The translations under genes and the position numbers were made by a program. Under the pieces are notes generated by a model. The model did no database searches. It saw nothing but the letters and a program-made list of their open reading frames with translations, and was not told the origin of the DNA. From Croceivirga sp. (GTDB lineage Bacteria; Bacteroidota; Bacteroidia; Flavobacteriales; Flavobacteriaceae), in contig JANQKR010000011.1 in NCBI GenBank assembly GCA_028281025.1, positions 62,001-126,000 of the forward strand: a stretch of DNA of 64,000 bases, read 5' to 3'. Every line of letters begins with the position of its first letter. Within the stretch, counting starts at the first letter, position 1. Of this stretch, positions 24,450 through 42,200 are shown piece after piece.

Positions 24450-24632
24450 CTAATATCCTCCGCAATTATCTCTTACACTAAACTTCGTGCAACGATTTGA
24501 CCCACAACAAGCTTTACTTTTTCTAGTACCGTTGTTACAACTAATAACACAGATTCCTCCGCCGTTAACGCTTTCCATTTCAAATCGGTCCATTTGTGAA
24601 ATAGTCTTTTTGTTTAACTTAAGTTTTTTCAT
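24450..24632 (-). CDS. Class I lanthipeptide precursor (LanA-like, double-Gly leader)
   Basis: The product is a 60-residue peptide. The leader KKLKLNKKTISQMDRFEMES ends in VNGGG, matching Bacteroidota class I lanthipeptide leaders with a GG cleavage site (after G24-G25 or G25-G26). The core (about residues 26-60) holds six Cys (28, 32, 42, 43, 48, 57) and six Ser/Thr (31, 36, 39, 45, 49, 52), plus several Arg/Lys, and ends CGGY. The LanB dehydratase would act on Ser/Thr, LanC would close thioether rings, and the C39 exporter would cut the leader. The gene is transcribed away from the lanB operon, with its own TATATTTG promoter core. Confidence 0.85.
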   Translation of the reverse strand: MKKLKLNKKTISQMDRFEMESVNGGGICVISCNNGTRKSKACCGSNRCTKFSVRDNCGGY

Positions 24633-24674
24633 GATTAGATTTTAAAATTTAATTTTGAAGGATTATTCCTATAA

Positions 24675-24682
24675 CAAATATA
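24675..24682 (-). promoter_or_regulatory. Promoter -7 box of the precursor peptide gene
   Basis: TATATTTG on the minus strand is a perfect TAnnTTTG core, 42 bases upstream of the precursor ATG. The -33 region is AT-rich without a clear TTTG. Confidence 0.6.
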
Positions 24683-24773
24683 GGCTTATTTTATTTTAAT
24701 TTTAATAATTAACATGTAATATTTTTTAATAAAAAAACTATAATATATATATGTAAATTCAGCTATTTTAATC

Positions 24774-24804
24774 TTTTAGATAGACATTAAGATTATTACA
24801 TTTG
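24774..24804 (+). promoter_or_regulatory. Promoter of the lanthipeptide biosynthesis operon
   Basis: TACATTTG at 24797-24804 is a perfect -7 core, with TTTT at 24774-24777 in the -33 position. It lies 31 bases before the first gene and is divergent from the precursor promoter. Confidence 0.6.
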
Positions 24805-24835
24805 CTGTAATTATGATTTATAATTATTAAATTAA

Positions 24836-27199
24836 ATGATACGATTCTTGTTTTTCTTATTCTTTTTTTGCTTTCATGTTCAATCCCAAGAAATAATAAC
24901 CTCTACTCTGTTAAGACCCGAGTCTAAAGAAATATCTGACTTCTCTTTTTTGAAAAAAGAACTTAAAAATAAGAATGTGGTATTGCTCGGAGAAATGACC
25001 CACAGGTATGGGAATATTTTTGAAATGAAAGCACGCCTAATAGAATATCTCCATAAAGAATTAGGATATACAACAATTGCCATTGAGTCACCTATGTATG
25101 ACCTTTGGAAGGCTAGTCAAAATAGGCTTGACATAAATACCTTGAACAAATCTATATGGGATGTGTGGTCGGACTCAAAAGAATTTCAGAGGTTGAGCAA
25201 ATACATCATTGATAACAAATTGAAGGTAATTGGATTTGATTCTCAAGTCATAAACACTAGAAGTTTTATCGATGATTTTTTCAAATATTGTAAAAAAAAT
25301 AAGGTTCTTCTGAAACTTAACGAAGATGATTTAGGCATTGTTTTTGAAGGTGTTTTGGAGAATGTAAGCTATGGATCCGAAGATATAGACTTTCCTGAAT
25401 ATGAAAAGGAGCTAAATAGAATTGTAAATCAAATATTGAAACTCCAAAAAACCAAAGAAAACAATTATTGGTTACAACTGATTAAAAGCCTGATAGCATG
25501 CTCAAAAGATGCTTACTACAACCAAGAACCCTTATTGTCATCCTATTACGCTGATGAACAGCATAATTTTAGGGATGAGCAGATGGCGGACAATTTGTTA
25601 AATTATATCAATAGAAATCCAAATGAAAAGATTATTTGTTGGGCCGACAACATACATATAGTCAAAAGTTTAAAAGGTATAAAAGATAGTATTATTAAAA
25701 AGTTTACCCCTATGGGGCAGTTTGTTCATGATTCATTGAAAAACAAGATGTATAGTATTGCATCTTTGCATTCGAACGATTCCTTATTCGATGGTAAAAT
25801 TTGGCACCAAACGCCTATCCTTTATGGTTCTTTTGAAGATAAACTAAGAAGATTGGGTAGTCCATATTTATTCATAAGCTCAAATCAAGAAAGTTTAAAA
25901 GTACCGATGACATCCAGACTGTTAAATTTTAGCGAGTTTGTTAAAACACCTCTTAATCAATTGTTTGACGGATACATATACTTTCGAAACGCAACAGCTC
26001 CCGAAAATGAACTTCAATACTTATCAACAAGAAAAAATCCAAAGACAAAATCAATCAATAAAACTAAGGAAAGTGCGGAATCCATAATGTATGATCTCCA
26101 AGTGATAGATATGGAGACTAAAAAGCCCATTCCATATGCGGATATTATATTGGAAAATTTGGAGATTTATCGCATGGCAGATGAAAATGGAAAATTAAAA
26201 ATCAAAATCCCATTGAATAATTCGGAAAATGATGTTCTTATGGTCAAATCAATGGGATATGAAGAAAAAAAAGTACTGTTTAACAAAATAACTTCAAAAT
26301 TAGAATTGGCTCCTAAATATGAACTTTTAGACGAGATTGTTCTTTATGGAACAATGACACCACGAGCAATTCTAAAAAAAGCAGTAGAACAACTAAAAGA
26401 CAATTACCCGCTCCAATCTTTCAATTTTAGTAGGTACGCCCAAGTTATCATTAACAATAATGACCAGACAACTTTAGATATTGAATTAATAACACAAGAC
26501 TATGATCAGGGCTACTCATCTCCTTTTATTATAACCCAACGTGGAGAACAGGTGAAATGGAACAAAAACGTATTTAGTGAACGTAATAGGTATTACTCTG
26601 ATTTTTTTGCCTACAGACAAAATTCTATTCGATATTCTAATATCTTACACAAAAGAAAATATAAAAAGTTTAAACTCAATTTTGTTGAATCTGAAGACGA
26701 AAAATATCCAAATGCTTACATTATTTCGTTTTCAACAGATAGGAAAGGCTGGAATTATACAAATAGAGGTTACTCGACTTCATATTTTGGAAAACTGTAT
26801 ATTGATAAAACTGATTATGCCATATTAGAGATAAATGAAGTTTGGGAAACAACCTTGTTCCAACCTGAGATAAGTAAATTTTGGGCAGGGTACAAACGTT
26901 ATGACGAAATAAAAGAAATGAAAATTAAGGAAGAAAATACTTGTAAATATAAGAAGCATGAAGATAAGAAGTATTACGCTTCCAATTATTACAGGAAATA
27001 TTACACAGAAAGCATCAATAATAAAAACGAGTTATCAAATTCATTATTAGAAACAAATTCTTCTGTTTTTAACATAATTAAACAAGGAGTGGAAGAAATA
27101 AAATATGAAGAATACATAAAGTCTAAAATTAATGATGTACAGTATGATAGTGAGTTTTGGACTACTTTTTATGAAAGCAAGCAAATTCGAAACAATTAA
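24836..27199 (+). CDS. Exported erythromycin-esterase-like protein fused to a carboxypeptidase-regulatory domain
   Basis: The 787-residue protein has a signal peptide (FLFFLFFFCFHVQSQ). Residues 35-400 resemble the erythromycin esterase superfamily: LLGEMTHRYGNIFEMKARL (G52-E53-x-T-H56), the TTIAIESP strand with E84, and IICWADNIHIVKS near residue 268, where classical members have WAHNxH. From about residue 417 there is a carboxypeptidase-regulatory-like beta domain (YDLQVIDMETKKPIPYADII), then a long charged region of unknown fold. It is the first gene of the operon with LanB and LanC. An envelope role in tailoring, processing or self-protection is inferred. Antibiotic esterase activity is not shown. 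Confidence 0.72.
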   Translation: MIRFLFFLFFFCFHVQSQEIITSTLLRPESKEISDFSFLKKELKNKNVVLLGEMTHRYGNIFEMKARLIEYLHKELGYTTIAIESPMYDLWKASQNRLDINTLNKSIWDVWSDSKEFQRLSKYIIDNKLKVIGFDSQVINTRSFIDDFFKYCKKNKVLLKLNEDDLGIVFEGVLENVSYGSEDIDFPEYEKELNRIVNQILKLQKTKENNYWLQLIKSLIACSKDAYYNQEPLLSSYYADEQHNFRDEQMADNLLNYINRNPNEKIICWADNIHIVKSLKGIKDSIIKKFTPMGQFVHDSLKNKMYSIASLHSNDSLFDGKIWHQTPILYGSFEDKLRRLGSPYLFISSNQESLKVPMTSRLLNFSEFVKTPLNQLFDGYIYFRNATAPENELQYLSTRKNPKTKSINKTKESAESIMYDLQVIDMETKKPIPYADIILENLEIYRMADENGKLKIKIPLNNSENDVLMVKSMGYEEKKVLFNKITSKLELAPKYELLDEIVLYGTMTPRAILKKAVEQLKDNYPLQSFNFSRYAQVIINNNDQTTLDIELITQDYDQGYSSPFIITQRGEQVKWNKNVFSERNRYYSDFFAYRQNSIRYSNILHKRKYKKFKLNFVESEDEKYPNAYIISFSTDRKGWNYTNRGYSTSYFGKLYIDKTDYAILEINEVWETTLFQPEISKFWAGYKRYDEIKEMKIKEENTCKYKKHEDKKYYASNYYRKYYTESINNKNELSNSLLETNSSVFNIIKQGVEEIKYEEYIKSKINDVQYDSEFWTTFYESKQIRNN

Positions 27200-27280
27200 C
27201 AATATCGATTAATATTAAGCACTGCTTTTCTGAAATTTTAATTTCTTTTATTGCCATGTATTTGTTGAAAGAAAGATTCA

Positions 27281-29506
27281 ATGGCGAACCAAATATCACT
27301 AGACTTATCTTTAATGAGCTTAAAATTTTCCTCCTTTAACACCTATGTAATCAGAACTCCGATAATACCATTTTCGTGGGTCAATAAGCTAACACAAAAT
27401 AAGATATTTGAATTATGCAGAATTCCTTTTATATCTGAAGCTATATATATTGCATCCCCAGAGTTGCATAGTGAAATGCTAAAATTGATTGATGGGAAAA
27501 CTGTCAAAAATGAAAAGAAACTTCTCCAAACACTTTTAAAGTATCTTTTACGAATGGGGTTTCGTTGTACCCCATTTGGTCTCTTTAGTGGATGTGCAAC
27601 GGGTAAATTTGATGACGACACCCATATTGACATGAAAGATTCAAAAAGTCACAAAAGAGAAACACGTCTGGATATGAATTTTTTATGCGCCTTGGCTCAA
27701 AAAATCGAGGAAAACGCTGATATTAGAAATAGCCTTCATTATTATCCAAATACAAGCTTAAGTCAAATCGGAAATGATTTAAGATATGTGGAATATAGAT
27801 ATGAAAAAGCCTTAAGACGCCATTTTACTGTTTCAATCGAAAACTCTGAATACATAAGAATTATACTTAATACTGCTAAAAATGGAGCTTCAATTGATAC
27901 ACTATCAAGTCTGATTAATGAACCAGATGTTTCTGCTGAAGATGCCTCCAATTTCATACATGAACTCATTGACAATCAAATATTGGTTAGTTCTATCTCC
28001 CCATCAGTTACAGGGGAGGATTATTTAAATCTATTAATTGACAAAATTTCAGACAATGGTATCAAATCTTATTTAAAAGAAATCAATAATGTTTTAAATC
28101 AAGTAAACAATAGCCCTATAGGTTACGGATTAAACTACTATAACACATTAATAGAAATTATAGAGAAATTCAATGTAGGATTTGAAAAAAAGTTTTTGTT
28201 TCAAACTGATCTATTTCCAAAGTTTAAATCCAACAAGATAGATTCAAAAATCATTGACAAAGTAAACAAAGCACTTTCGGTACTAAATAAACTAACCCCT
28301 TATGTTGTAAATGAAGAGTTGGAGAAGTTTAAAAACGAATTTTATGATAGATATGAAGATGAAGAAATCCCCTTATCCTTGGCTCTTGATGTCGAGGCAG
28401 GTATAGGGTACGGAAAAAATGGAGAGGGATCTTTCGATATCTCTCCTCTTATTGATGATATTTTTTTTGATGGACAAAACAATATTTCAAATAACCACAG
28501 AAAAATAAATTGGTCTTTTAGAGATACATTGCTAAACAAAAAAATAAGAGATTCTGTTAAAACGGGTTCGTTAGCTATAAATTTGACAGACCAGGATTTG
28601 ATTGATTTTAAAGAAAATTGGGATGATTTACCTGATACCTTTTCAGTTCTTGTCAATTTGATAAAGGCAAAAAAAAATGGAAGCGATGAACTAATATACA
28701 TAGACCATGTTGGGGGCGCTTCTGCTACTGTGTTGTTGGGACGATTTTGTCAATCCAGTAAGGAGATTCGGAATCTTGTTACAAAAATAATTGAGTCTGA
28801 AGAATTAATTCGCGAAGACATTTATGCTGAAATCGCCCATTTACCTGAGAAAAGAACCGGAAATATACTTAATAGACCAAACCTTAGAAGGTATGAAATA
28901 CCATATTTGGCAAATAGTACTCTTGAATTAGAAAATCAAATTGATATCAGTGATATTATGATTTCAGTTGTAAATGAAAGAGTAATTCTGCGCTCTAAAA
29001 AGCTTAATAGATATATTGCTCCAAAGTTGGCAAGTGCCCATAATTATTCATCTGCTTCTTTGCCTATTTATCATTTTCTATGTGATTTGCAGCTTCAGAA
29101 CAACAGGGAGTCTATTGGCTTTAATTGGGGGAATCTATATTCGTTGTATGATTTCTTTCCGAGAGTAAGTTATAAAGATATAATCTTATCTCCGGCTACT
29201 TGGTTAGTTAATAAAGGTAAAATAAAAAATTTGGTTTCGTTGAAAGCTGTGGCTAGTTGGAGGAAAAAAGAAGAAATACCTTCAAAAATTTTGCTTGTTG
29301 ATGGAGACAATCAGTTGTTAATTGATTTAGAACATGAACTTTCAATTGAATTGTTTATTTCATGTATCAAAGGAAAAAACGAAGTGATTATTTCAGAATG
29401 CCTATATGATTTTGAAAATTCTGTTGTCAACTTTAACGGAGAACCTTGTACAAATGAAGTGATTTTATCATATCATAGAAATCAAGAAAGTCTGATGGAA
29501 TCATGA
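27281..29506 (+). CDS. Lantibiotic dehydratase, glutamylation part (LanB N-terminal type)
   Basis: The 741-residue protein begins with the FSSFNTYVIRTP motif typical of LanB N-termini, followed by the conserved RMGFRCTPFGLFSGCATG segment. Later landmarks are VLLGRFC and RPNLRRYEI, where LanBs have Arg residues for glutamyl-tRNA-dependent glutamylation of Ser/Thr. The C-terminal elimination domain is absent here and is provided by the next gene, so LanB is split, as known in some Bacteroidota lanthipeptide and thiopeptide systems. Cytoplasmic; it acts on the precursor at 24450. Its end overlaps the next start by four bases. Confidence 0.9.
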   Translation: MANQISLDLSLMSLKFSSFNTYVIRTPIIPFSWVNKLTQNKIFELCRIPFISEAIYIASPELHSEMLKLIDGKTVKNEKKLLQTLLKYLLRMGFRCTPFGLFSGCATGKFDDDTHIDMKDSKSHKRETRLDMNFLCALAQKIEENADIRNSLHYYPNTSLSQIGNDLRYVEYRYEKALRRHFTVSIENSEYIRIILNTAKNGASIDTLSSLINEPDVSAEDASNFIHELIDNQILVSSISPSVTGEDYLNLLIDKISDNGIKSYLKEINNVLNQVNNSPIGYGLNYYNTLIEIIEKFNVGFEKKFLFQTDLFPKFKSNKIDSKIIDKVNKALSVLNKLTPYVVNEELEKFKNEFYDRYEDEEIPLSLALDVEAGIGYGKNGEGSFDISPLIDDIFFDGQNNISNNHRKINWSFRDTLLNKKIRDSVKTGSLAINLTDQDLIDFKENWDDLPDTFSVLVNLIKAKKNGSDELIYIDHVGGASATVLLGRFCQSSKEIRNLVTKIIESEELIREDIYAEIAHLPEKRTGNILNRPNLRRYEIPYLANSTLELENQIDISDIMISVVNERVILRSKKLNRYIAPKLASAHNYSSASLPIYHFLCDLQLQNNRESIGFNWGNLYSLYDFFPRVSYKDIILSPATWLVNKGKIKNLVSLKAVASWRKKEEIPSKILLVDGDNQLLIDLEHELSIELFISCIKGKNEVIISECLYDFENSVVNFNGEPCTNEVILSYHRNQESLMES

Positions 29507-30375
29507 AAAAAGTACAAAGAAATTTTTTATTGGGTGATGAATGGTTGTACTATAAAATATATTCAGGAACAAAAACTTCAGAGGACATTTTAATTAACAT
29601 AGTACAACCACTATCCAAAAAGCTTCTGAATGAAAAAATCATTGACAAATGGTTTTTTATTAATTACGCTGACCCAGACAGACACATAAGGGTAAGGTTT
29701 CATATCGTGAAAGAAAACGGAGGACTTGAATATGTTATCAAATTGTTTCGGAATGCGATTTATCCACTTATAGAAAACAAACTAATCGTTAAAGTTCAAG
29801 TCGATACCTACAAAAGGGAATTGGAAAGATATGGTTCCCAAGTCATAGAAGAATTTGAAACACTTTTTTACTTGAACAGTGAATTAATTCTCGATTTAAT
29901 AAATATTATCGATGGAAATCCAAATAAGCGATGGCTATTTGCGCTAAAATCATTAGACATTTTATTGTCAGGATGGGGTATGACTATAAATGACAAAAAA
30001 AATCTTTTCGAGCTTTTAAAAACTTCATTTGATGAAGAAATGGGGGTAACCCCACCTGTCAGAAAAATTTTAGGCAAGAAGTATAGGAAATATCGCGAAC
30101 AAATTTTAGAGGTGTTGCAAAATAAAAATCACGAGTTAAATCGACGTTTGTTGAACCACAACAATGAAGCGCATTCCGTTATTCAACAGATTTTCAAAAA
30201 GTCTAATTACACAAAATTAGACGATGCAATTAATGTAATCGACAGTTATGTTCACATGCATTGCAACAGGATTTTCACTTCAAGACAGAGAATGAACGAA
30301 TGGATTGTTTATGATTTTTTATACAATTATTACAGAAGTGAAATTGCAAAGAAAAAGAATAAAAAAAGCTTATAA
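29503..30375 (+). CDS. Thiopeptide-type/LanB C-terminal elimination domain protein
   Basis: The 290-residue stand-alone SpaB-C-type protein has GDEWLYYKIYSGTKTSEDIL, FFINYADPDRHIRVRFHI, VDTYKRELERYG and HMHCNRIF, the landmarks of the glutamate-elimination domain that completes Ser/Thr dehydration. Its ATGA overlap with the dehydratase start-stop suggests stoichiometric co-translation of a two-subunit LanB. Confidence 0.9.
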   Translation: MKKVQRNFLLGDEWLYYKIYSGTKTSEDILINIVQPLSKKLLNEKIIDKWFFINYADPDRHIRVRFHIVKENGGLEYVIKLFRNAIYPLIENKLIVKVQVDTYKRELERYGSQVIEEFETLFYLNSELILDLINIIDGNPNKRWLFALKSLDILLSGWGMTINDKKNLFELLKTSFDEEMGVTPPVRKILGKKYRKYREQILEVLQNKNHELNRRLLNHNNEAHSVIQQIFKKSNYTKLDDAINVIDSYVHMHCNRIFTSRQRMNEWIVYDFLYNYYRSEIAKKKNKKSL

Positions 30376-30434
30376 AGTGTGTGTGGCGCAAAGTTATCTT
30401 ATCACCAATAGTCCTAACCACCTAGAAACAACCA

Positions 30435-31982
30435 ATGAACAGTAAAGAAGAGCCATCCACTATTTTGTATCGCTTTGTTAAGAAGAAGAAAAAATCTATA
30501 AACAAAGAAGATTTGGCTTTTCAATTATGTTCACATCCGGACTATCCACAGCCGATATCGGTATTAGAGACTTTAGAGAAGCTTAAAATAAAGTGTAGTG
30601 TATATCAAACCTCATTACAAGAAATAGATACAGATATTGGTTGTTTCTTAACTTTATTATCCAACAAACAGGGCAACCAATTTTATTCTATAGTCGAAAA
30701 AACAAAAAGTGGCTATAAATCAGATTTTAAAAGAATCGACTATCATCAGCTTCATGGCATGTGGACCAGCATTATTATTGTAATAGAAAATAATCAAGAA
30801 CATAATGTAGAAAGAAAAAATTGGTTTTTTAAATTACTGCTGTTAACAATAGGGGTGTCAACTTTTTTTTGGGCAACGAGTTATAGTTTTAATTTTCATA
30901 CGATTATCTTTAGCTTTTTATCAATAATTGGATTTATTTTATCCTTAAGTGTTTTTGATGATTTAAGGATTGGAAACATTTCTGTCGTTTCTCAATTGTG
31001 TGAGAGAAACAAAAAAACAAATTGCAATGAAGTGATTAATTCGACTAAATGGAAATTATTAAAATTTTTGAATTTTTCCGATTTAAGCCTCACTTTTTTT
31101 GCAACCCAAATATTGGTACTATACCTAATGTCATTAATGACATTAAAAGTTGAGTATTTTAAAGTTCAAAATGTTTTATTGATAGCAAGCATACCTTTTA
31201 TTTTTATTTCCATATTTTATCAGAAAAAGGTTGAAAAAAAGTGGTGTCCAATCTGTTTGGGAATTTCATTGATATTGTTTTTGGAATTCTTTATTAATCT
31301 TCCTTTTGTTAACTACAATTATGATTTCAGAGCCTTAGTCTTTTATTTTTCAATTTATGGGCTTGTATATGTTTTTTGGAAGAAGAACAGGACAAACCTT
31401 CTAAAAAAAACAGAATTGTTGTCTAAATTGTCAAAGGCCAACCAGACACTCAATAATTATGAAACATTCAAACATATTCTTACGAAGAATAATGACAAAC
31501 TAGAATGTCTTATTTCCAATAGTGATTCTTATCCCACAATTATTGTTGTAACTGATCCATTTTGCGATCATTGTAAAAGTTTACATTCTGAATTAGCAGG
31601 ACTTTTTGGACAAACAGACACTTGCCCAAATATTTCTTTTGTTTTTAATACGGATATCGAAGAGGAATCAGATTTTGAAAAATCTATTTACCGAAACTTA
31701 ATGTTTCATCAAAAAAATGAGGGCGATACTATATTCTTTATGGATGTTCTTGAGGAATGGTTTTTTGAAAAAAACAAGAGCCAATGGTTGGATAAATATT
31801 CAAGAAGTTTTGATGAAAAAAAGATTGATTTAATTTTAAAAGAACAGTACAACTGTTGTAAGAATTACAATATTAAATTTACACCTGCAATTATAATCAA
31901 CGGATATTTATTGCCATCTACATATACCATACAAAATCTATCTTTTTTTATTAAACATCTCGTCAATGATTCCAACTATTAA
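30435..31982 (+). CDS. VKOR-thioredoxin fusion with degenerate C39-like N-terminus
   Basis: This 515-residue membrane protein has three parts. Residues 1-115 resemble a C39-peptidase-like domain without the catalytic Cys context (HPDYPQPISVLETLEKLKI). A vitamin K epoxide reductase-type membrane domain with about five helices follows (about 130-310), with redox Cys in KKTNCNEVINSTKW and KKWCPICLG. A thioredoxin-like domain has FCDHCKSLHSE near residue 376. It would oxidise or isomerise thiols at the membrane. Within a lanthipeptide locus it may make disulfides in the product or protect Cys; this is inference. It lies 59 bases after the LanB elimination gene. Confidence 0.82.
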   Translation: MNSKEEPSTILYRFVKKKKKSINKEDLAFQLCSHPDYPQPISVLETLEKLKIKCSVYQTSLQEIDTDIGCFLTLLSNKQGNQFYSIVEKTKSGYKSDFKRIDYHQLHGMWTSIIIVIENNQEHNVERKNWFFKLLLLTIGVSTFFWATSYSFNFHTIIFSFLSIIGFILSLSVFDDLRIGNISVVSQLCERNKKTNCNEVINSTKWKLLKFLNFSDLSLTFFATQILVLYLMSLMTLKVEYFKVQNVLLIASIPFIFISIFYQKKVEKKWCPICLGISLILFLEFFINLPFVNYNYDFRALVFYFSIYGLVYVFWKKNRTNLLKKTELLSKLSKANQTLNNYETFKHILTKNNDKLECLISNSDSYPTIIVVTDPFCDHCKSLHSELAGLFGQTDTCPNISFVFNTDIEEESDFEKSIYRNLMFHQKNEGDTIFFMDVLEEWFFEKNKSQWLDKYSRSFDEKKIDLILKEQYNCCKNYNIKFTPAIIINGYLLPSTYTIQNLSFFIKHLVNDSNY

Positions 31983-33403: not shown

Positions 33404-34195
33404 CTAGTTCGTTCCAACTTGAAGGAGTTTATATTCTACAGATTTTCTCTCAATAATCTCCCAAAGCTTTAATTTATCTTGGGTATGCACAACGTTTCTA
33501 AATAAACTGTCTGCCTCACAATAGTAAAGGAAATCATAAATATTACTTTTTGATATTGCAAGGTCTTTTATAAAAAGACTATCTGTAAAAAAAGATTTAA
33601 CTTTTTCTGTTATTTTATTATTATGAGTCAATAAGCGGATTTTTTTTATTTCTTTATTTTCACCATCGAATATATTTCCTAAGAAAAATCTGTTCGATTC
33701 ATTAAAATTTTTATAATAAAGACCTTTAAATTTTAAACTCTTCTTTTTACTATTGGGCAAACCCAAACTTTTTGCTGTGACAATTGGTTTATACTCTAAT
33801 AGATTAATATCATTATTTAGATAACCAGAAAACAAAAATGGTTTGACAACTACCTCATCCAGTTCTATCGTCTTCTTATATAGATGAACTATAATATCAT
33901 TTTTCAATATGATTTCTTCGTCTATTATTATGGTTTTTGCCCTAAATTGTATTCCTGTTATTACCAAAGTATCTCTTAATTTAACGTTAATGCCAAACAA
34001 ACCATTTTCATCAGAAATAGTAGCACTTTGAGATGTTTTATTTATTATGTGGAGAGAAGAAACATTAGAAGAAACATTGGAAGAATCCACTATTTTACCG
34101 AATAACATTTGTTCTTGAGCATGCATAGATAATGATATAAGCAAAAATAAATAACAAATTACAGGGATTTTCTTTTTAACATTTTCAGAAGTCAT
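33404..34195 (-). CDS. Exported carboxypeptidase-regulatory-like domain protein
   Basis: The 263-residue protein has a signal peptide (IPVICYLFLLISLSMHAQ) and an N-terminal carboxypeptidase-regulatory-like beta domain (about 30-115, ending IELDEVVVKPFLFSG). A Lys-rich region of unknown fold follows. The second half resembles the charged C-terminal regions of Bacteroidota surface proteins. The DEVVVKP end parallels LDEIVLYG in the esterase-like protein at 24836, so both may be related envelope parts of this locus. Function unknown. Confidence 0.7.
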   Translation of the reverse strand: MTSENVKKKIPVICYLFLLISLSMHAQEQMLFGKIVDSSNVSSNVSSLHIINKTSQSATISDENGLFGINVKLRDTLVITGIQFRAKTIIIDEEIILKNDIIVHLYKKTIELDEVVVKPFLFSGYLNNDINLLEYKPIVTAKSLGLPNSKKKSLKFKGLYYKNFNESNRFFLGNIFDGENKEIKKIRLLTHNNKITEKVKSFFTDSLFIKDLAISKSNIYDFLYYCEADSLFRNVVHTQDKLKLWEIIERKSVEYKLLQVGTN

Positions 34196-34307: not shown

Positions 34308-35142
34308 TTAGGTACTGGTCATAACTAGAGAATCCGGGCTATTTTCATTCATTTCAATGTATTCGTTGGGAGACATGTCTCCCAACGAGCTATGCGGTCT
34401 AAAACCGTTGTAATCCTCCCTCCAAATATCGAATTTTTCTTGCGCATCTTCCAAGGAAAAGAACCAATTGGCATTAAGGCACTCGTCCCTAAATGAACCA
34501 TTGAAGCTCTCGATATAGGGGTTGTCAGTTGGTTTTCCCGGCCTGGAGAAGTCCAATTCCACTTTGTTTTCAGGCCCATTTGTCCAAAACCTTACTGATG
34601 AACTCACTTCCATTATCGACTTTAATGCTCCGGGGGAAGCATCTTGTGGATTCCGTTATACGTTCCATTGCCCCGACCACATCACTTCCCTTAAGTGACT
34701 TTCCAGCATGTATGGACAAACATTTGCGACTAAAGTTATCCACTACAGTTAAGGCACGGAAACGGCTTCCATCATACAATTGATCGGACACAAAATCCAT
34801 GCTCCAGCACTCGTGCAAACTAGAGGCACTACCATCCAGCGGCTTCCTATGGGCGGCCGAACGGTTCCTTTTGGGGCGTTTCGGCCTAAGGTTCAATCCT
34901 TCTTCGCAATAGACCCTGTACATCCGTTTGTGGTTGTCCATGAAACCTTCCCTCCTAAGCAATATATGGATACGCCAAAAACCATAGCGGACACGAACGG
35001 CCGCAATCTCCTTCATGCGCATGCGCAACAACTCGTCGTTACGGCCCTTGCCCCTGTAATAATACATGCTCCTGGCCAATCGTACCAGCCCACAGCAACG
35101 GTTGATGGAAACATTGTACTCCATCCTGATGTTACCGACCAT
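34308..35142 (-). pseudogene. IS3-family transposase OrfB (DDE), frameshifted
   Basis: The integrase core is split into two frames. The upstream part (34570-35142) has LVRLARSMYYYRGKGR, RYGFWRIHILLRREG, the first Asp in CWSMDFVSD and the second Asp in [18 protein letters not shown]. The downstream part (34308-34613 frame) has [17 protein letters not shown] and the catalytic Glu in [12 protein letters not shown], ending [14 protein letters not shown]. Joining them near 34571 requires two extra bases, consistent with a 2-base deletion where related elements read KWAYENKV. The copy is therefore predicted inactive by itself. Confidence 0.85.
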
Positions 35143-35162
35143 CTCCCGTTTTCGAGACGGCC

Positions 35163-35429
35163 TCAGAACTTTTTTTTCAGGACATCCTGTAAAATCTGCT
35201 TGTCAAGGCTCAGGTCGGCGACCAGCTTCTTCAACTGGGCGTTCTCCTCTTCAAGATTCTTCAACCGCCTGAGTTCGGATACCCCTAGACCGCCATATTT
35301 CTTCTTCCAATTGTAGAACGTGGCCTCCGATATGCCCATCTTTCGGCATACCTCGGAAACCCTTGTGCCCGTCTCGGCCTGTTTGATGGCGAAGACAATC
35401 TGTGATTCACTGAATTTTGAACGTTTCAT
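35163..35429 (-). CDS. IS3-family transposase OrfA
   Basis: The 88-residue protein is read from ATG 35429 (KRSKFSESQIVFAIKQAETG); the frame opens at 35471. A helix-turn-helix (RVSEVCRKMGISEATFYNWKKK) and a leucine-zipper-like helix (LRRLKNLEEENAQLKKLVAD) are typical. It ends QDVLKKKF, right at an A8 run where -1 slippage would fuse it to OrfB. Confidence 0.9.
   Translation of the reverse strand: MKRSKFSESQIVFAIKQAETGTRVSEVCRKMGISEATFYNWKKKYGGLGVSELRRLKNLEEENAQLKKLVADLSLDKQILQDVLKKKF
35170..35177 (-). promoter_or_regulatory. Programmed -1 frameshift site of the IS3 element
   Basis: Eight consecutive A followed by G (minus strand) lie in the last codons of orfA. The orfB reading frame is in the -1 phase there and is open across it, giving a KKVLRPSRKREM junction. 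Confidence 0.65.
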
Positions 35430-35499
35430 TGGCAAATAATGATTTAAAATTACACATTTATTCGCCCGCAAACTCTAATTCTAAACTGTCCCATCTATC

Positions 35500-35512: not shown

Positions 35513-35584
35513 TAAGTGTACAACTTTAGCAATTTTCCCAATTATTCCATCTGTTAATTCTAAGAAACAACAATGTTCTTTAAT

Positions 35585-36802
35585 TTAGATTAAGAAAGCA
35601 TAAGATTGTTGAAACATTCTCGATGCGGTATAATTTTTTAAAAAAAGTTTATAAGCATTCTCAACGATGTCATTCCTTTGATTAGTGCTTTCTACCATTA
35701 TAGCCATAGTATTAGCTAAACAATCGTCATCATTAGTTTTAACTTTTAAACAGTGTTCGCCATTTTTTAGGTGTTTAAAGGCTGGAATATCAGAAAGTAT
35801 CATAGGCAACCTGTACTTCATCGCCTCAAGCATTACATAGCTGCTCTGTTCGTTTAATGAGGGAAAAACCAAGGCATTGGACAAAGAATAGTATTGAGGC
35901 ATTTCCAGAGGTGTTACATATCCCGTAAAGTGGATGGTAATTCCATACTTCTTCCCCATATATTCAATCGTTTTTCTTAACGGCCCTTCACCTACTATTA
36001 ACAAAGCCAAAGGTTTATTCACCCTTTTTATTAAATGTCTGAAAGCTTCCAATACTCTTTTTATTCCTTTTTGCTCTGTCAGTCTTCCCACATATAGGAA
36101 TGTGAAAGTTTCTTTGTTTTTAAAATAAGAGTTTCCTTTGCTCTTATTCCTATCTTGAATAGCTCCTATTTGATTGACACTTATCCCATTCTGGACAATA
36201 TTCAGCTTAGACTTGGGGATAGAATAGTATTTTATTGCATCGTCGGCCATTTCACTAGTAAGGCAAATAACGCTATGTGCCATGCTGCAATTTTTAGACT
36301 CTACTTGAATATTAATGATTCTGGTATCTTCAATTTCATTTTTTTTCCAGTTTAACAAGAATTGTTTACGGTTGTTTTTATAGAATACCCTCCAAAGTGA
36401 AACATGAATAGTATAAATAATTTTAGCATTAGTATTTTCTTTAATTTTCTTTAGTAAATAGTATTGCATATTATTATTAAAATGAAAGATGTCAGAATTT
36501 GATATTTTGAAAACATCCATCAAAAGATAGAATATCGCCACAGAATATTGCTCTGACAATCCAATTAATAATTTGTCTTTATCTTCAATAGTTCTCGGAA
36601 TATCAAAGAATAGTACATTCTCATCAAATCTTTGTAATACGTTGGATATTCTCATACTCCCGATTGTAACAACTATCATTTCTAGATAGTGTTTTCGCTT
36701 TTTAGCCTCGTATGCCATTTCAGAAATATACCTTCCAATACCAAACTTTTGAGATTCATCAGTTTGATTAATTAAAAAGATGCGAGTTTTTCTTTTATTC
36801 AT
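35585..36802 (-). CDS. Family 4-type glycosyltransferase of a natural-product locus
   Basis: The 405-residue GT-B protein begins RIFLINQTDESQKFGIGRYI, the opening seen in Bacteroidota glycosyltransferases of the TIGR04157 type that accompany double-glycine natural-product peptides. The C-terminal domain has FLYVGRLTEQKGIKRVLEAF, LLIVGEGPLRKTIEY and FPSLNEQSSYVMLEAMKY, the sugar-nucleotide site of GT4 enzymes. It overlaps the upstream GT gene by eight bases. It may glycosylate the exported peptide; the acceptor is inference. Confidence 0.83.
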   Translation of the reverse strand: MNKRKTRIFLINQTDESQKFGIGRYISEMAYEAKKRKHYLEMIVVTIGSMRISNVLQRFDENVLFFDIPRTIEDKDKLLIGLSEQYSVAIFYLLMDVFKISNSDIFHFNNNMQYYLLKKIKENTNAKIIYTIHVSLWRVFYKNNRKQFLLNWKKNEIEDTRIINIQVESKNCSMAHSVICLTSEMADDAIKYYSIPKSKLNIVQNGISVNQIGAIQDRNKSKGNSYFKNKETFTFLYVGRLTEQKGIKRVLEAFRHLIKRVNKPLALLIVGEGPLRKTIEYMGKKYGITIHFTGYVTPLEMPQYYSLSNALVFPSLNEQSSYVMLEAMKYRLPMILSDIPAFKHLKNGEHCLKVKTNDDDCLANTMAIMVESTNQRNDIVENAYKLFLKNYTASRMFQQSYAFLI

Positions 36803-37535
36803 TCTGAAAGACTTTCAAATATTCCAATTCGTTTTTTTTTCTAACCTCATTGCTAGCATGCCAAGAATTGGTATTCCTATCATGGTGTAAATGGTAAAGA
36901 GGTGAATTTGAACGCTTTATGAAAAACCCTTGTTTCTTCAACCTATAATATCGTTCTTTATCGTCTGGTCCCCATCCATAAATGTTTTCATTATCTGGAC
37001 CGAATTCTTCAAAATCGTGTGCCCTTCCTCCGAAAACACCACCAACAGAGTATTGAAACCAAAGCTTGAATTTTGACTCTTTTCTCTTTAGAAAATCATA
37101 TTCATTAAACTTTTCGTATGTTTTTCTAACACTTCTTGGCACATTAAAAAATTTCCCATCATATGGATAAACCAACATTTGTTTTTTTGTACTTCTCAAT
37201 TGCTTAGTGCATTCTAATAAGGCTTTGGGTGAAGTTATGACATCCGAATCGCAGATAAAAAAGTATAAGGTTGCACATTGGCTTACCATCTTATTTCGAT
37301 ATCTTGTAGTATGAAAAATCAAATCATTATCTTCAATAAAAGTATAATCTAGGCTGGGTAATCTTCTGATTTCTTTTGGAATTCTAGGCTTATTGTCTAT
37401 TTCCCAAAGCATAATGGAAGTGTCAAAATGAGTAATAATATGCTTGATTACTAGTTTCAAGTTTATCAGCCTGTCCTTGGAGTCAATTCGGGCGTAAATC
37501 AAAAAGCATGTATCTTTTAAGTTGTATTTAGCCAT
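36795..37535 (-). CDS. GT-A glycosyltransferase (galactosyltransferase-related)
   Basis: The 246-residue protein has a GT-A fold: N-terminal FLIYARIDSKDRL, a DxD-type metal site in YFFICDSDVITSPK, and the GT7-like acceptor motif NENIYGWGPDDKERYYRLK followed by PLYHLHHDRN. It is co-translated with the GT4 enzyme (8-base overlap) and the helical protein upstream (8-base overlap). It is likely part of peptide or cell-surface glycan decoration; donor and acceptor are unknown. Confidence 0.8.
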   Translation of the reverse strand: MAKYNLKDTCFLIYARIDSKDRLINLKLVIKHIITHFDTSIMLWEIDNKPRIPKEIRRLPSLDYTFIEDNDLIFHTTRYRNKMVSQCATLYFFICDSDVITSPKALLECTKQLRSTKKQMLVYPYDGKFFNVPRSVRKTYEKFNEYDFLKRKESKFKLWFQYSVGGVFGGRAHDFEEFGPDNENIYGWGPDDKERYYRLKKQGFFIKRSNSPLYHLHHDRNTNSWHASNEVRKKNELEYLKVFQNE

Positions 37536-38478
37536 TATATCTAATATTTAGATTTGATACGGCTATCATAACAACCAGATTCTTTGATTCCAGTTCGTCA
37601 ATCAAAGCTAAAGCTTGTATAATAATTCTTTTCATAATGGAATGAGCGTTATTATCGCCAATGATATTAGATTGATTTATATTATTGTTTAGTTGATTAG
37701 CGATATCCTTCAAAAGGATTTGCTTGTCATTGTTGATTTCCTGAATCTTTTCACTAAAGTAATGTGATAACAATAGAGCTCTAGACAATTTTTGATTTTT
37801 TCTGGCAGAACTATATAGTTCTAGGGCTTCCTTTTTGTAAGGCGTAATGTCGCTTTCTAGTTGCAACAGACCTCTTTTTGCTGTACAAACTGTTTCCTCT
37901 CTATCCAAGCCTTTTTCAAACAAAAATTCCATTAACATAATCCAAACAACGTCTCTTTTATTCCAATCTTTAATATGATAGGTCAGTTCAAAAAAGGCAA
38001 TAGAAAGATGTTCCTTTATAATGAATGTATATTCGGACTTTTCATCTACATGCCTAATCCGATAAAAAAAATAGAACGCAATCAATAAAAGTTCATCCAT
38101 ACTGTCAGACGAAAATTTTCCTCTTGATAAAGAATTGATTTTGCTTATTGCTATTTCGTCAAGAGGATTTAAAATATCTTCCAAATCATCTGATTCAAAA
38201 AATCCTTCCTCAATAAATAATAGTAAACTCCATCCTATTTCCACAGCGCTCAATGGCTCAATTTTTTTATTTTCAAGAGGAATTATCACATATGACAATG
38301 TTTCTTGCAAAAGTTCAAAAGCAAAACTGGCGTATGATTGTTTTCTGTACTTATAAGCATAGTGAAACAGATAATATAGAAGTAATGCTTTATCCTTTAT
38401 TTTCAACTTGCTAACCACCTCTGAGTTGAGAAGTATAAAATGTGCGGCTTCTTCATGGAGATTTTTTTTTGCTTTCAT
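37528..38478 (-). CDS. Helical protein of the glycosyltransferase operon
   Basis: The 316-residue, almost entirely alpha-helical, acidic protein has no signal peptide. SAVEIGWSLLLFIEEGFFES at about residues 77-96 recalls the IGWGI/EFL segments of LanC-like or related toroid proteins in Bacteroidota peptide loci. The zinc ligands of a real LanC are missing. It is the first gene of a three-gene operon with the two glycosyltransferases, and could serve as a scaffold or peptide-binding partner (inference). No family is firmly recognised. Confidence 0.6.
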   Translation of the reverse strand: MKAKKNLHEEAAHFILLNSEVVSKLKIKDKALLLYYLFHYAYKYRKQSYASFAFELLQETLSYVIIPLENKKIEPLSAVEIGWSLLLFIEEGFFESDDLEDILNPLDEIAISKINSLSRGKFSSDSMDELLLIAFYFFYRIRHVDEKSEYTFIIKEHLSIAFFELTYHIKDWNKRDVVWIMLMEFLFEKGLDREETVCTAKRGLLQLESDITPYKKEALELYSSARKNQKLSRALLLSHYFSEKIQEINNDKQILLKDIANQLNNNINQSNIIGDNNAHSIMKRIIIQALALIDELESKNLVVMIAVSNLNIRYNG

Positions 38479-38649
38479 AAGATACTAAGTAAATTGTAAT
38501 ACACATTTGCAAAATCCCTGGATTTGATACCAAAGGCCCTCTAAAATATATTATACAATTGGGTGAGGTCTGCCACAATTAAAGCATTCTTCAATAAAAA
38601 TTAGGATATTTTGGCAATAATATATCTATCACATTGCATTCTAAGTCCT

Positions 38650-38681
38650 TAAAAAAAGAATGTTCAATATTATCGAACATT
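38650..38681 (-). terminator. Terminator of the exporter operon
   Basis: On the minus strand AATGTTCGAT / ATTGAACATT forms a 10-bp stem (one G-T pair) followed by CTTTTTTT, starting 13 bases after the HlyD stop. It separates the exporter pair from the glycosyltransferase operon. Confidence 0.7.
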
Positions 38682-38694
38682 TCTAATATTTGTT

Positions 38695-39996
38695 TTATTG
38701 ATATTTGAAAATATTTTTGAACTTATAAAAAATCCTTTCCGCCACACTAAGATCTTCGGTTATAATTTCGGCACTTCCTATAAGTTCTTGGTCAAAAGGC
38801 AGATATCTATTGTAAGTAGTCTTTGTTCCCACAGGAAGCGAAATATATACAAAATAGTTGCCATTATTGTCAGGTGAAATGGAAATGCTTTTTACTCTAC
38901 CGGATAGCAAGCCGTATTGCTGATAAGGGAAATTGTCTAACTTCACTAACACTTTTTGATTCAAAGTCACTTTGCCAGCATTTTGAGATGGGATTGTTAG
39001 TTTTCCCACCAAAACAGATCTATTAGTAGGCAAAATAGAAAAAACAACTTCACCTGAGTTGATAAATTGATTTGTTCCCCAAAACTCTTGAAAGCTCACT
39101 ACACCTTTAATTGACGAAGAAAGTACATAGGTGTGTTCCCACTCACGAATTGCTTTTTTTAAGGCATTATAAGATTGCGAAAGATTGGTTAAAAAACGAG
39201 TGTCATCTTCTTTTTGATTAATTTGTACCGTTTTCAGAGCATAATCTGCGGAAGAAATAGCCTCTCGAATCTGTGAAATAGATATGGACATTGAACTGAT
39301 GTTTTTTTCCATTTGAAGAAATTCCAGTTTCCTGGATTCATATTCTTGTTGAGAAATCACCCCTTTTTTAAACAGTTCCTCATGCCTTTCCAAATCTCTT
39401 TTTCCCAATTTATATTCCTGCTCCAATACTCTCTTTTGCTTAATCTGATTCTTGAGTCTTAACTTTGTCTCTGCCAATGATTGTCGATTTCCGGACAAAC
39501 GATTGGAGTGGGGATCTAGCTCCTTTAATAATGTATAGTCTACATAACTTTTTTCAAAATTAATATAAGCGGTTTCAACATCCCCTAAAGCCAAATTAGA
39601 TGTAAGAGACACAGGGAATAACAAATCTTCTGACTTTAAAGGCAAAGTGTCTAAAACCGCTTTTAAGAAAAATACATCTTCAGTTACAGATGTATTTCGA
39701 ATAACAGCTAAATGTTGTCCAGCTACTACCGTGTCACCATTCTGAATATAAATATCTTCTAAAGCTCCAGAATATCTGGCAACTACTTTTTCTGTTGGGC
39801 TCTCAGTGGTAACAGTGATTTTGGCAGTAACAAAATCCGGATATCTTATCATAAAAGATAAAACCAGAATGATAATCGTAAACATAAAAACTAAAGTTAT
39901 GCCCCAACGTACAATCCAAGCAGGAGGGTTTGATAGTATTTCTTGAACTTCTTCTGACCGTAAATTGAGTTCCTCAGTATTTGGATTTTCAGGCAT
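38695..39996 (-). CDS. HlyD-family membrane fusion protein
   Basis: This 433-residue adaptor of a type I-like exporter has a short cytosolic N-terminus and a transmembrane helix near residues 30-52 (WGITLVFMFTIIILVLSFMI). The first half-lipoyl motif is YSGALEDIYIQNGDTVVAGQ. A long coiled coil of about 130 residues follows (ETKLRLKNQIKQKRVLEQEY), then the returning lipoyl/barrel segment and a C-terminal IGSAEIITEDLSVAERIFY. It starts five bases after the ABC transporter stop and would link it across the periplasm. Confidence 0.9.
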   Translation of the reverse strand: MPENPNTEELNLRSEEVQEILSNPPAWIVRWGITLVFMFTIIILVLSFMIRYPDFVTAKITVTTESPTEKVVARYSGALEDIYIQNGDTVVAGQHLAVIRNTSVTEDVFFLKAVLDTLPLKSEDLLFPVSLTSNLALGDVETAYINFEKSYVDYTLLKELDPHSNRLSGNRQSLAETKLRLKNQIKQKRVLEQEYKLGKRDLERHEELFKKGVISQQEYESRKLEFLQMEKNISSMSISISQIREAISSADYALKTVQINQKEDDTRFLTNLSQSYNALKKAIREWEHTYVLSSSIKGVVSFQEFWGTNQFINSGEVVFSILPTNRSVLVGKLTIPSQNAGKVTLNQKVLVKLDNFPYQQYGLLSGRVKSISISPDNNGNYFVYISLPVGTKTTYNRYLPFDQELIGSAEIITEDLSVAERIFYKFKNIFKYQ

Positions 39997-40001
39997 TTTT
40001 T

Positions 40002-42200
40002 TTACATATTTATTTTTTCGAGTTCTAATTGATTCTTTACAAGATTATAATAAGCCCCTTTCTTGTTCAATAACTCCTCATGGGTACCAGATTCTTTTAT
40101 TTTCCCTTCATCCATCACTACTATCTGATCTGCATTTTTGACTGTACTAAGTCTATGCGCAATAATGATTACTGTTCTGTTTTCAAAAAACCTATTTAGG
40201 TTTTTCATGATTACCTTTTCATTTTTGGCATCTAGAGCAGAAGTAGCTTCATCAAAACATAATAATTGAGGGTTCTTGTAGATTGCTCTGGCAATAAATA
40301 GGCGTTGTTTTTGGCCAGTGCTAACGCCGACTCCTTCATTGCCAATTGCAGTATTAAAACCCAGTGGAAGAGATTGTATAAAATCATAAATATTTGCAAT
40401 TTTTGCAGACTTTATCAGCCTTTCTTGATTTATTATATCCTCTCCCACAGCAATATTATATGCAATTGTGTCATTAAACACATAGCCTTCTTGCATAACT
40501 ACCCCACAATGGTCGCGCCATGTCTTGTAAGAAATGTTGTTAAGATATTGGTCTCCATATAGGATATTTCCTTTATTTGGATTGTAAAACTTCAACAATA
40601 ATTTCAACAAAGTGGTTTTACCACTACCACTAGTCCCTACTATTGCTGTTACTTTATTGGCAGGGATTTCCATACTCAGTCCTTTGATCACATTCTCGTC
40701 ACTTCCCAAGTATCTAAAAGATAGATTTTTAATTTCTAATTTTTGATTAGGTTTAATTTTTACTGCTAATTGCTTATCATTATCCTCTTCATTTTTCTTA
40801 TCATGAATTTCACTGAGACGTTCCATGCTTATTTTAGCATCTTGATAAGATTGGATAAAACCTACCATTTGGCCTATTGGGGCATTCAATTGCCCAATGA
40901 TATACTGTATGGACAACATCATTCCTAAAGTAATATTTCCTTCTATTACCAAAACAGCCGAAGTGAAGGTTACAACAATATTCTTAAGTTCGTTAATTAC
41001 AGATGATCCCACCCCCTGTACTTGCTCCAGAGCAAGGCTCTGTACAGATACTTTAAACAGCCGAGCTTGCACAAATTCCCATTTCCAACGTTTCTGTTTT
41101 TCAGCATTGTGCATCTTGATTTCCTGCATGCCATTAATCAATTCGATGACAGTACTCTGTTCTTGGCTCAATTGTGAAAAACGTTTGTAATCCAACTCTT
41201 TTCTCCTTTTGAGAAAGTATAAAATCCATATGACATAAAGGATACTCCCAATGGCAAATATTCCAAAAATGGCAGAACTATAATATATGAGCACTGCTCC
41301 AAAAACCAATAAATTAAACATAGAGAAAAGAGTGCTTAATGTGGTGCCGGTTAGCAAGTTCTCTATTCTACTATGGTCGTTTATACGTTGCATAATGTCA
41401 CCGGTCATGCGCGTGTCAAAATAAGCCATGGGCAATGCCATAAGCTTGATAAAGAAATCGGAAACCAAAGAGATATTAATCCGTGTACTCAAGTGCAACA
41501 AAATCCAGCTTCTGAAAATATCTACGCTGGTACGTCCTAAGAAAAGCATAATTTGTGCAGCCAATACCACATAGATAAAGTTGATATCTTGATTCTGTAT
41601 ACCAACATCTACAATACTTTGAGTTAAAAAAGGAAAGATTAATTGTAGCAAACTACCAACAAGTAACCCAATACAGAGTTGAATAATTAATCCCTTGTAT
41701 TTGAACAAATATTGAAACAGAAAACGTAATGATTTTTTATCAGTATTCTCCCATTGCAACTTTTGGAACTTAGGAGTTATTTCCAATAATAAAGTTATGC
41801 CCTCTTTGATATTTTCACTAGCATTATTCCCAATCCATCTAACCAAGAATTCTTCTTTGCTATAGGTAATAAGACCATAGGATGGATCAGAGACATAAAC
41901 AACACCCATTTTGATTTTATAAACAACAACAAAATGATTTTTATTCCAGTGCACTATACAGGGTAATGGAGCATCTTCTAATTGGGTGTAGCTCAGTTTA
42001 GCACCAATAGATTTGAATCCGATAGCCTCTGCAGCATCACTCAACTTAAGAAGATTACTCCCTATTCTAGTAGTCTCGGAAAGCTTCCGTATCTCTTGCA
42101 ATGATATAAGCTTACCATAATGTTTGGCAATAATTCTAAGACAAGTAGGGCCACAGTCCTTTACTCCAGGCTGCTTGTAAAATGGAAAAGGCTTTTTCAA
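40002..42200 (-). CDS. Peptidase-containing ABC transporter (C39 bacteriocin exporter)
   Basis: The 732-residue PCAT has three parts. The C39 peptidase domain has catalytic Cys16 in VKDCGPTCL, His89 in WNKNHFVVVY and Asp105 in VSDPS. A six-helix membrane domain spans about 165-440. The ATPase has Walker A GTSGSGKTT, signature VGVSTGQKQR and Walker B LLCFDEATSALD. It would cut the precursor leader after the double Gly and export the modified peptide with HlyD. The frame starts with TTG at 42200; a stop lies four codons upstream, so no ATG is available. Confidence 0.92.
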   Translation of the reverse strand: MKKPFPFYKQPGVKDCGPTCLRIIAKHYGKLISLQEIRKLSETTRIGSNLLKLSDAAEAIGFKSIGAKLSYTQLEDAPLPCIVHWNKNHFVVVYKIKMGVVYVSDPSYGLITYSKEEFLVRWIGNNASENIKEGITLLLEITPKFQKLQWENTDKKSLRFLFQYLFKYKGLIIQLCIGLLVGSLLQLIFPFLTQSIVDVGIQNQDINFIYVVLAAQIMLFLGRTSVDIFRSWILLHLSTRINISLVSDFFIKLMALPMAYFDTRMTGDIMQRINDHSRIENLLTGTTLSTLFSMFNLLVFGAVLIYYSSAIFGIFAIGSILYVIWILYFLKRRKELDYKRFSQLSQEQSTVIELINGMQEIKMHNAEKQKRWKWEFVQARLFKVSVQSLALEQVQGVGSSVINELKNIVVTFTSAVLVIEGNITLGMMLSIQYIIGQLNAPIGQMVGFIQSYQDAKISMERLSEIHDKKNEEDNDKQLAVKIKPNQKLEIKNLSFRYLGSDENVIKGLSMEIPANKVTAIVGTSGSGKTTLLKLLLKFYNPNKGNILYGDQYLNNISYKTWRDHCGVVMQEGYVFNDTIAYNIAVGEDIINQERLIKSAKIANIYDFIQSLPLGFNTAIGNEGVGVSTGQKQRLFIARAIYKNPQLLCFDEATSALDAKNEKVIMKNLNRFFENRTVIIIAHRLSTVKNADQIVVMDEGKIKESGTHEELLNKKGAYYNLVKNQLELEKINM

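Follow-up and report, generated by a model that had tools for sequence, protein, structure and literature searches.

Walker et al. (2020, PMC7268733) report class I lanthipeptides of the Bacteroidota with leaders of the pattern LxLxKx5L, Gly-Gly (GG) cleavage sites and C39 proteases, and also split LanBs. According to the same source, the pinensins were the only lanthipeptides isolated from the phylum by 2020. A class I cluster from Tenacibaculum has been published (PMC10734526). The locus described here lies at 24.4-42.2 kb of a stretch of 64,000 nucleotides (the window) from the 5.1 Mb genome of a Croceivirga species, family Flavobacteriaceae. It has the GG site, C39 domain, split LanB and LanC in common with the Bacteroidota systems of PMC7268733, and its leader (LKLNKKTISQM) fits the LxLxKx5L pattern except for a Met in the last place. 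The window differs in carrying a VKOR membrane thiol oxidase and a set of genes for a zinc-less LanC-like protein and two glycosyltransferases (GTs), neither of which is mentioned for Bacteroidota systems in the relevant passages of PMC7268733, where GTs are named for class IV clusters. We put the probability that this locus makes a class I lanthipeptide which receives further modifications before its release (glycosylation, and perhaps disulfide bonds) at roughly 55%.

The pinensin system of Chitinophaga resembles the window in being a class I system of the Bacteroidota with a split LanB; GTs and VKOR are not known to be part of it. Cacaoidin is reportedly glycosylated, and NAI-112 is said to be a glycosylated class III lanthipeptide of actinobacterial origin; we know of no LanC-like GT partner for either. 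Glycocins combine GG/C39 export with thiol oxidases and SunS-type GT2 enzymes. Like the product proposed for the window, they are glycosylated and exported ribosomally synthesized and post-translationally modified peptides (RiPPs), as described for pallidocin (PMC6405829), but they are not known to involve LanB or LanC. Cacaoidin is actinobacterial and belongs to class V (PMC8068269), a class other than that of the window. Bacteroidales clusters of the TIGR04149/TIGR04157 kind (PMC10352776), represented here by locus L087, share with the window a GG peptide, a C39 domain, a TIGR04157-type GT4 (23% identity) and a zinc-less LanC-like gene directly before a GT. Unlike the window, L087 has a radical SAM (rSAM) protein and a pseudo-rSAM protein for maturation, with no LanB and no zinc-bearing LanC among its annotated genes. 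In the literature searched, lanthipeptides and VKOR came together in one paper, on an Amycolatopsis species. No description of a LanC-like/GT set beside LanB/LanC was found among the titles and abstract beginnings listed from the largely open-access literature.

Class I lanthipeptide genes of the locus

The leader of the precursor (MKKLKLNKKTISQMDRFEMESVNGG) scores 28.5 bits against the hidden Markov model (HMM) NF038153, 'class I lanthipeptide' (cut-off 22), and 23.3 bits against TIGR04149, slightly below the cut-off of 25 that would mark it as a RiPP of the rSAM kind. No rSAM family matched among the 12 locus proteins scanned with HMMs. We place the cleavage site after G25 because this gives the canonical GG spacing, and the predicted core then has 35 residues with 6 Cys and 6 Ser/Thr and a monoisotopic mass of about 3700.66 Da. 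A filtered scan for small open reading frames (ORFs) with GG leaders between 22 and 45 kb, outside the large genes, printed one, the precursor. The genes that start at 27281 and 29503 fall firmly in LanB families: LanB_N matches PF04738 at an E value of 4e-147, and LanB_C, whose start overlaps the end of LanB_N by 4 bases, matches PF14028 at E 8.3e-66 and TIGR03891 with 190.6 bits (cut-off 48.45). LanC scores 112.8 bits against PF05147 (cut-off 23.2) and keeps its zinc ligands, C256 in YCYG and C313 and H314 in FCHG, as judged from alignment and motifs. The exporter scores 106.7, 108.8 and 100.5 bits against PF03412, PF00664 and PF00005, respectively, and has counterparts of 87% identity at loci L071 and L075 of Flagellimonas onchidii.

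These HMM results bear out the first-pass annotation of the window, which had placed a precursor, a split LanB, a LanC, a C39 exporter and an HlyD partner at these positions, and its assignment of the product to the class I lanthipeptides with a split LanB is supported by curated models. With a split LanB, a zinc-bearing LanC and a class I precursor, the locus is predicted to be a class I lanthipeptide gene cluster, and its LANTHIPEPTIDE core is of a kind already known. Dehydration and ring closure by LanB and LanC are well supported as predicted activities, as is export with GG cleavage by the C39 exporter and HlyD. Of the 199 genomes of the family that were searched, 19, that of the window among them, have a relative of LanB_N (E up to 0.001); the match in one of them (G170) is short and weak. 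The genome also has a second LanB/LanC locus (L023, on contig C3) with C39, HlyD and an NF038153 precursor on the opposite strand, where a DUF6734 gene and a gene for a 233-residue protein with no Pfam match (6718-8303) lie immediately before LanC.

It could be that the product is a plain class I lanthipeptide and that GTs and VKOR play no role in its making, having come to lie there by chance. Precursor, LanB, LanC and C39 do form the usual set (PMC7268733), and LanB loci of the family are mostly without GTs. Neither GT4 nor GT-A of the window was the best BLAST match of any ORF in 18 other LanB loci. Moreover, GT families are absent from the 25 commonest Pfam families (each with at least 2 members) among 107 LanB-neighbour proteins of at least 120 residues, encoded no more than 6 kb from LanB_N, not locus-terminal and without a BLAST match to window proteins; as 147 families were listed in all, those with one or two members may fall outside the 25. 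GTs are not usual next to LanB genes. What makes chance improbable is the arrangement of the genes: GT4, GT-A and LanC-like overlap by 8 bases each on one strand behind the exporter, the gene order recurs in two other genomes, and the VKOR gene lies between LanB_C and LanC.

The zinc-less LanC-like protein and its glycosyltransferase neighbours

The product of the LanC-like gene, which the first-pass annotation had labelled simply a helical protein, aligns with LanC over 107 columns of its N-terminal half (hhalign E 1.6e-6, probability 90), and in a profile search confined to ORFs of the fetched loci the next six matches after its own family are LanCs. It has no Pfam match at E 1, and a Foldseek search of the PDB gave no match below E 0.001. 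The CYG and CHG zinc motifs occur in none of nine LanC-like proteins, this one included, vs 11 of 12 LanCs of LanB loci. By sequence comparison the protein is a relative of LanC beyond chance, predicted to lack the zinc ligands of a functional cyclase; the fold match of its model to LanC is weak when taken alone. Zinc-less LanC-like proteins near carbohydrate-active enzymes in Bacteroidales were judged not to be related to lanthipeptides in the parts of PMC10352776 that deal with them, and the interpretation favoured there is of a sugar-active alpha/alpha-toroid enzyme. Such an epimerase or hydrolase, making or trimming a sugar rather than presenting a peptide to GTs, is an unlikely identity for the protein encoded in the window, given the hhalign E value and the run of LanCs that follows its own family in the profile search.

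Searches for the LanC-like protein returned few genomes. A single-sequence search found it in 2 of 199 family genomes (its own and that of Snuella), a two-row profile in its own only among 395 genomes of the phylum, and a scan of genome contigs at four loci in two named species. Within the genus of F. onchidii, a four-row profile matched 1 of 60 genomes, that of F. onchidii, where one of the five places matched is a normal LanC. A five-row profile matched 3 of 349 family genomes (E up to 1e-5) and 7 of 335 phylum genomes (E up to 0.001); the latter include the window's own, L088, L089, the zinc-less protein of L083 and a normal LanC beside LanB (L084), and by eye the proteins of the remaining two, L085 and L086, seem to be unrelated. 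There was no plasmid match for the protein, and none in viral contigs was confirmed. At L083 (1450-3357), with about 1.5 kb of flank on each side, the zinc-less LanC-like gene overlaps a gene resembling luciferase-type monooxygenases.

The nine LanC-like proteins (window, L057, L073, L075, L059, L088, L089, L080 and L087) are a small and partly selected sample. L087 was reached by searching plasmids with the window GT4, so it is not independent of the GTs, and the other eight came from searches with the protein itself or with profiles built on it. One genome supplies both L075 and L059, which are nearly identical and lie at contig ends. A gene counts here as a GT if it passes a Pfam cut-off, is annotated as one in its record or is at least 35% identical to a GT of the window, and such a gene lies within three genes of the LanC-like gene at seven of the nine loci (the window, L057, L073, L075, L087, L088 and L089). 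At L073 the adjacent gene matches PF00535 only at E 0.037 and a STELLO-type GT above the cut-off is third along, and at L075 a STELLO-like neighbour is below the cut-off and a GT-A above it is third along. The short contig of L059 has only an unscanned copy of the STELLO-like gene beside its LanC-like gene. L080 (genome G737) weighs against the view that the LanC-like gene is always beside a GT, since its 20 kb, the other genes of which were partly scanned for families, contain no relative of the window GTs. No LanB was seen in these 20 kb, and L080 perhaps represents another use of LanC-like proteins. Within L080, positions 9266-11743 cover the zinc-less LanC-like gene, a gene resembling nucleotidyltransferases and the genes of two GG peptides that are rich in Cys and whose leaders look like those of lanthipeptides.

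The order C39-HlyD-LanC-like-GT on a single strand is found in the window, in L057 and in L089, the last having C39 (split over two ORFs), HlyD, LanC-like and two GT-A genes. Sets of LanC-like, GT and C39 genes adjoin three kinds of maturation machinery, which are rSAM (L087), VKOR (L057, L088 and L075) and LanB/LanC (the window and contig C12 of F. onchidii). L087, on a plasmid of Parabacteroides distasonis, has a TIGR04149 GG peptide, rSAM, pseudo-rSAM, the LanC-like gene (annotated as hypothetical), a TIGR04157 GT beginning 12 bases past it, a second GT and C39. The Snuella locus L057 has VKOR, one Cys-rich GG peptide, C39, HlyD, LanC-like and GT4, and L088 has VKOR, a Cys-rich peptide with a GSG leader (translated and read by eye), LanC-like, GT-A and C39. 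At L075 of F. onchidii there are VKOR, two Cys-rich GG peptides, C39 and HlyD (87% and 81% identical to those of the window), GTs and LanC-like. On F. onchidii contig C12 (L073/L074), LanC, LanB_N, LanB_C and a GG precursor (20.8 bits against NF038153, slightly below the cut-off of 22) adjoin C39, HlyD, an FkbM methyltransferase, GTs and LanC-like, together with a pair of genes for a GDP-mannose dehydratase and an epimerase. The F. onchidii LanB cluster L071, with two NF038153 precursors, a GT2 and its C39 exporter, has no zinc-less LanC-like gene among the profile matches.

Other F. onchidii sequences are more fragmentary. The contig of L076, separate from that of L075, ends in a LanC-like gene and carries GDP-mannose-dehydratase-like and epimerase-like genes. 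In the L060/L076 copy, which is cut by a contig end, the LanC-like protein is fused behind a DDD-motif domain that resembles the GT-like gene of L073 and has no Pfam match at E 0.01; on our own reading only, this is a fusion of a LanC-like protein to a GT. Two related proteins of no assigned family are encoded beside F. onchidii GTs (L074 11867-12703 and L075 1994-2875). Because their N-termini bear a faint resemblance to LanB elimination domains, they were tried as SpaB_C-like proteins and rejected (hhalign P 0.06, probability 0.9), the LanB_C profile used being impure, with strong matches to LanB_N proteins.

GT4 of the window scores 108.2 bits against PF00534 (cut-off 26.4), and its best NCBIfam match, TIGR04157, at 191.2 bits vs a cut-off of 400, makes it a relative of that family and not a member. 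It is 39% identical to the Snuella GT4, and its best plasmid match is the Parabacteroides TIGR04157 GT at 23%. At E 1e-80, TIGR04157 matched none of 247 genomes of the phylum, but the control was likewise silent, making the search uninformative. GT-A scores 27.8 bits against PF02709 (cut-off 23) and has DSD and GWGPDD motifs by eye. Relatives of GT-A (39%, 37% and 35% identical) lie beside LanC-like genes in L088 and L089, and matches at E up to 0.001 occur in 13 of 199 family genomes (best non-self E 1.7e-6); with the GT-A of F. onchidii at L075:2871-3917 there is no BLAST relation (E 0.15). SunS is not among the NCBIfam matches listed for the two GTs, which in the case of GT4 are 25 of 30; Pfam assigns the two enzymes to GT4 and GT7C-like families.

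A second explanation that we regard as unlikely, to about the same degree as a sugar-active toroid, is that two independent systems are neighbours here, the lanthipeptide set using the C39 exporter and the GT/LanC-like set serving another GG peptide that is lost or encoded elsewhere. The two sets are on opposite strands, an IS3 element separates GT4 from the next gene, and the genome of Snuella, which has no PF04738 match, pairs its GT4/LanC-like/C39 set with a VKOR peptide. These points are countered by the single GG precursor printed and the single C39/HlyD pair in the ORF list of the region, by contig C12 of F. onchidii, where LanB/LanC and an exporter-adjacent precursor are paired with a GT/LanC-like set, and by the VKOR gene of the window, which lies outside the GT set. 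A more far-reaching reading, to which we give somewhat less than even odds, is that C39 exporter, HlyD, zinc-less LanC-like adaptor and GTs form a portable cassette that has been plugged into three unrelated RiPP pathways of the Bacteroidota (rSAM, VKOR/disulfide and LanB/LanC), with the former cyclase presenting the peptide to the GTs; the product of the window would then be a glycosylated, possibly disulfide-bonded class I lanthipeptide. Gene order suggests that the LanC-like protein is the partner of the GTs, and gene content, together with the related loci, makes glycosylation of this peptide likely.

VKOR fusion, gene layout and mobile context

The VKOR protein scores 36.1 bits against PF07884 (cut-off 27.5) and 28.1 bits against PF13462 (cut-off 23.2), and its Cys residues 189, 197, 271, 274, 377, 380 and 475 are conserved in all four proteins aligned. 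The VKOR and thioredoxin domains named in the first-pass annotation are confirmed, but the annotation overlooked a C39-like N-terminal domain of the relatives: in all three that were scanned with Pfam, Peptidase_C39 precedes VKOR, which is followed by a DsbA-like thioredoxin. The window protein itself has no C39 match in the Pfam scan, and it aligns with the relatives over its full length, its N-terminal stretch against their C39-like domain. The Peptidase_C39 match in the relatives begins at profile position 12-19, and C16 of the exporter, which from its motif we take to be the catalytic Cys, falls near position 13. No Cys occurs among residues 1-31 of the window VKOR protein. Since the relatives in L057 and L075 have a Cys at residue 4, loss of the catalytic Cys is not established for them. 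The His of the exporter motif KNHFVVV is replaced, by eye, by Gln, Leu and Glu in the VKOR proteins of the window, L057 and L032, respectively, and the C39-like end of the window protein seems unfit for catalysis. An AlphaFold model of the VKOR protein was poor (pLDDT 48.8, pTM 0.32) and was set aside, and the C39-like domain is assigned from the Pfam matches of the three relatives. Relatives of the VKOR protein adjoin Cys-rich GG peptides in L057, L032 and L075, and VKOR of this type is present in one of the 18 other LanB loci, L032. There (6770-8718) the VKOR fusion stands inside a LanB locus, and the GG peptide next to it has another kind of leader (LGKTLNRKEQKAINGG).

Pfam also confirms the esterase-like fusion, GT4 and GT-A genes that had been annotated from the sequence (Table 1). 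The locus consists of two converging gene sets, Ere-LanB-LanB-VKOR-LanC on the plus strand and C39-HlyD-LanC-like-GT-A-GT4 on the minus strand, with the precursor at the left end divergent from the plus-strand set. The esterase-like protein scores 57 bits against PF05139 (cut-off 26.4), 29.2 bits against PF04187 and 32.1 bits against PF13715 (CarbopepD_reg_2), marginally below the cut-off of 32.2; we read its start as resembling a signal peptide, and it is the best BLAST match of no ORF in the 18 other LanB loci or the F. onchidii loci compared. The short outer-membrane-type protein scores below the cut-offs for PF13715 (27.1 vs 32.2 bits) and BamP (87.5 vs 230 bits), and HlyD scores 55.8 bits. 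The IS3-type transposase sits between the gene of the outer-membrane-type protein and GT4, and may have split an operon. The first-pass annotation listed neither of these two features, the outer-membrane-type protein and the transposase.

Table 1. Genes of the lanthipeptide locus, with window coordinates (aa, amino acids)
Feature	Position	Strand	Basis
Precursor (LanA), 60 aa	24450..24632	-	NF038153
Erythromycin-esterase/ChaN-like domain fused to CarboxypepD_reg-like domain, 787 aa	24836..27199	+	PF05139, PF04187, PF13715
LanB_N, glutamylation part of split LanB, 741 aa	27281..29506	+	PF04738
LanB_C, elimination part of split LanB, 290 aa	29503..30375	+	PF14028, TIGR03891
VKOR membrane thiol oxidase with DsbA-like thioredoxin, 515 aa	30435..31982	+	PF07884, PF13462
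LanC cyclase, 409 aa	32106..33335	+	PF05147
Short CarboxypepD_reg-like outer-membrane-type protein, 263 aa, doubtful member	33404..34195	-	PF13715, BamP (both below cut-off)
IS3-type transposase, outside the pathway	34308..35471	-	ORFs 34308-34613, 34570-35142, 35163-35471; label by reading
GT4 glycosyltransferase, 405 aa, TIGR04157 relative	35585..36802	-	PF00534
GT-A glycosyltransferase, 246 aa	36795..37535	-	PF02709
Zinc-less LanC-like protein, 316 aa, predicted alpha/alpha toroid	37528..38478	-	Comparison with LanC
HlyD-type membrane-fusion partner, 433 aa	38695..39996	-	PF13437
C39-peptidase ABC exporter, 732 aa, TTG start in ORF list	40002..42200	-	PF03412, PF00664, PF00005

To the right of the exporter (43468-47125) are genes for MobC, a relaxase, a small ORF and a recombinase (identified by reading), next to a tRNA-Arg. 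These four genes are 63%, 64%, 87% and 93% identical to neighbours of the F. onchidii LanC-like gene in L060. The tRNA-Arg(tcg) gene (47051-47125) is followed by yqeY and ftsZ. In two congeneric genomes the ftsZ side is retained together with yqeY, and in one of them also the tRNA; beyond this, about 10 kb showed no synteny. No direct repeats of at least 18 bases that could mark an attachment site were found in 18.0-47.6 kb. Because the mobilization genes are shared with L060 and synteny is lost beyond yqeY and the tRNA in the congeneric genomes, it is probable that a mobilizable element brought the cluster in or moves it.

Proposed pathway and its meaning

In the pathway that we propose, LanB_N would glutamylate Ser and Thr residues of the core using Glu-tRNA, and LanB_C would eliminate the glutamate to leave dehydroalanine and dehydrobutyrine. 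LanC would then close (methyl)lanthionine rings on a subset of the six Cys. Its zinc-less relative, the LanC-like protein, would carry out no cyclisation, but would bind the modified peptide or its leader and hand it over to GT-A and GT4, and these would add at least one sugar before the peptide leaves the cytoplasm. Cleavage after GG by the C39 domain would accompany export of the peptide through the ABC transporter and HlyD, and beyond the membrane the C39-like/VKOR/DsbA protein would oxidise the remaining free Cys to disulfides; its C39-like end may be a docking site for GG leaders. The presence of VKOR points to possible disulfides in the product. The first-pass annotation had suggested a decorated product, possibly glycosylated and containing disulfides. 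Gene content agrees with this suggestion, as do the exporter/GT sets of relatives near VKOR and Cys-rich GG or GSG peptides and the GTs and sugar genes in the LanB/LanC cluster of F. onchidii.

As the LanC-like/GT pairing adjoins a true LanB/LanC set and is arranged in the same way relative to the exporter at three loci, it gives the Bacteroidales proteins that had been set aside a testable job, that of a partner of RiPP GTs. Similar sets adjoin different peptide-modifying machineries, and for this reason the GT/LanC-like sets may be a portable means of glycosylating secreted peptides. If the proposed pathway is true, the Bacteroidota would have a way of making class I lanthipeptides that carry sugars.

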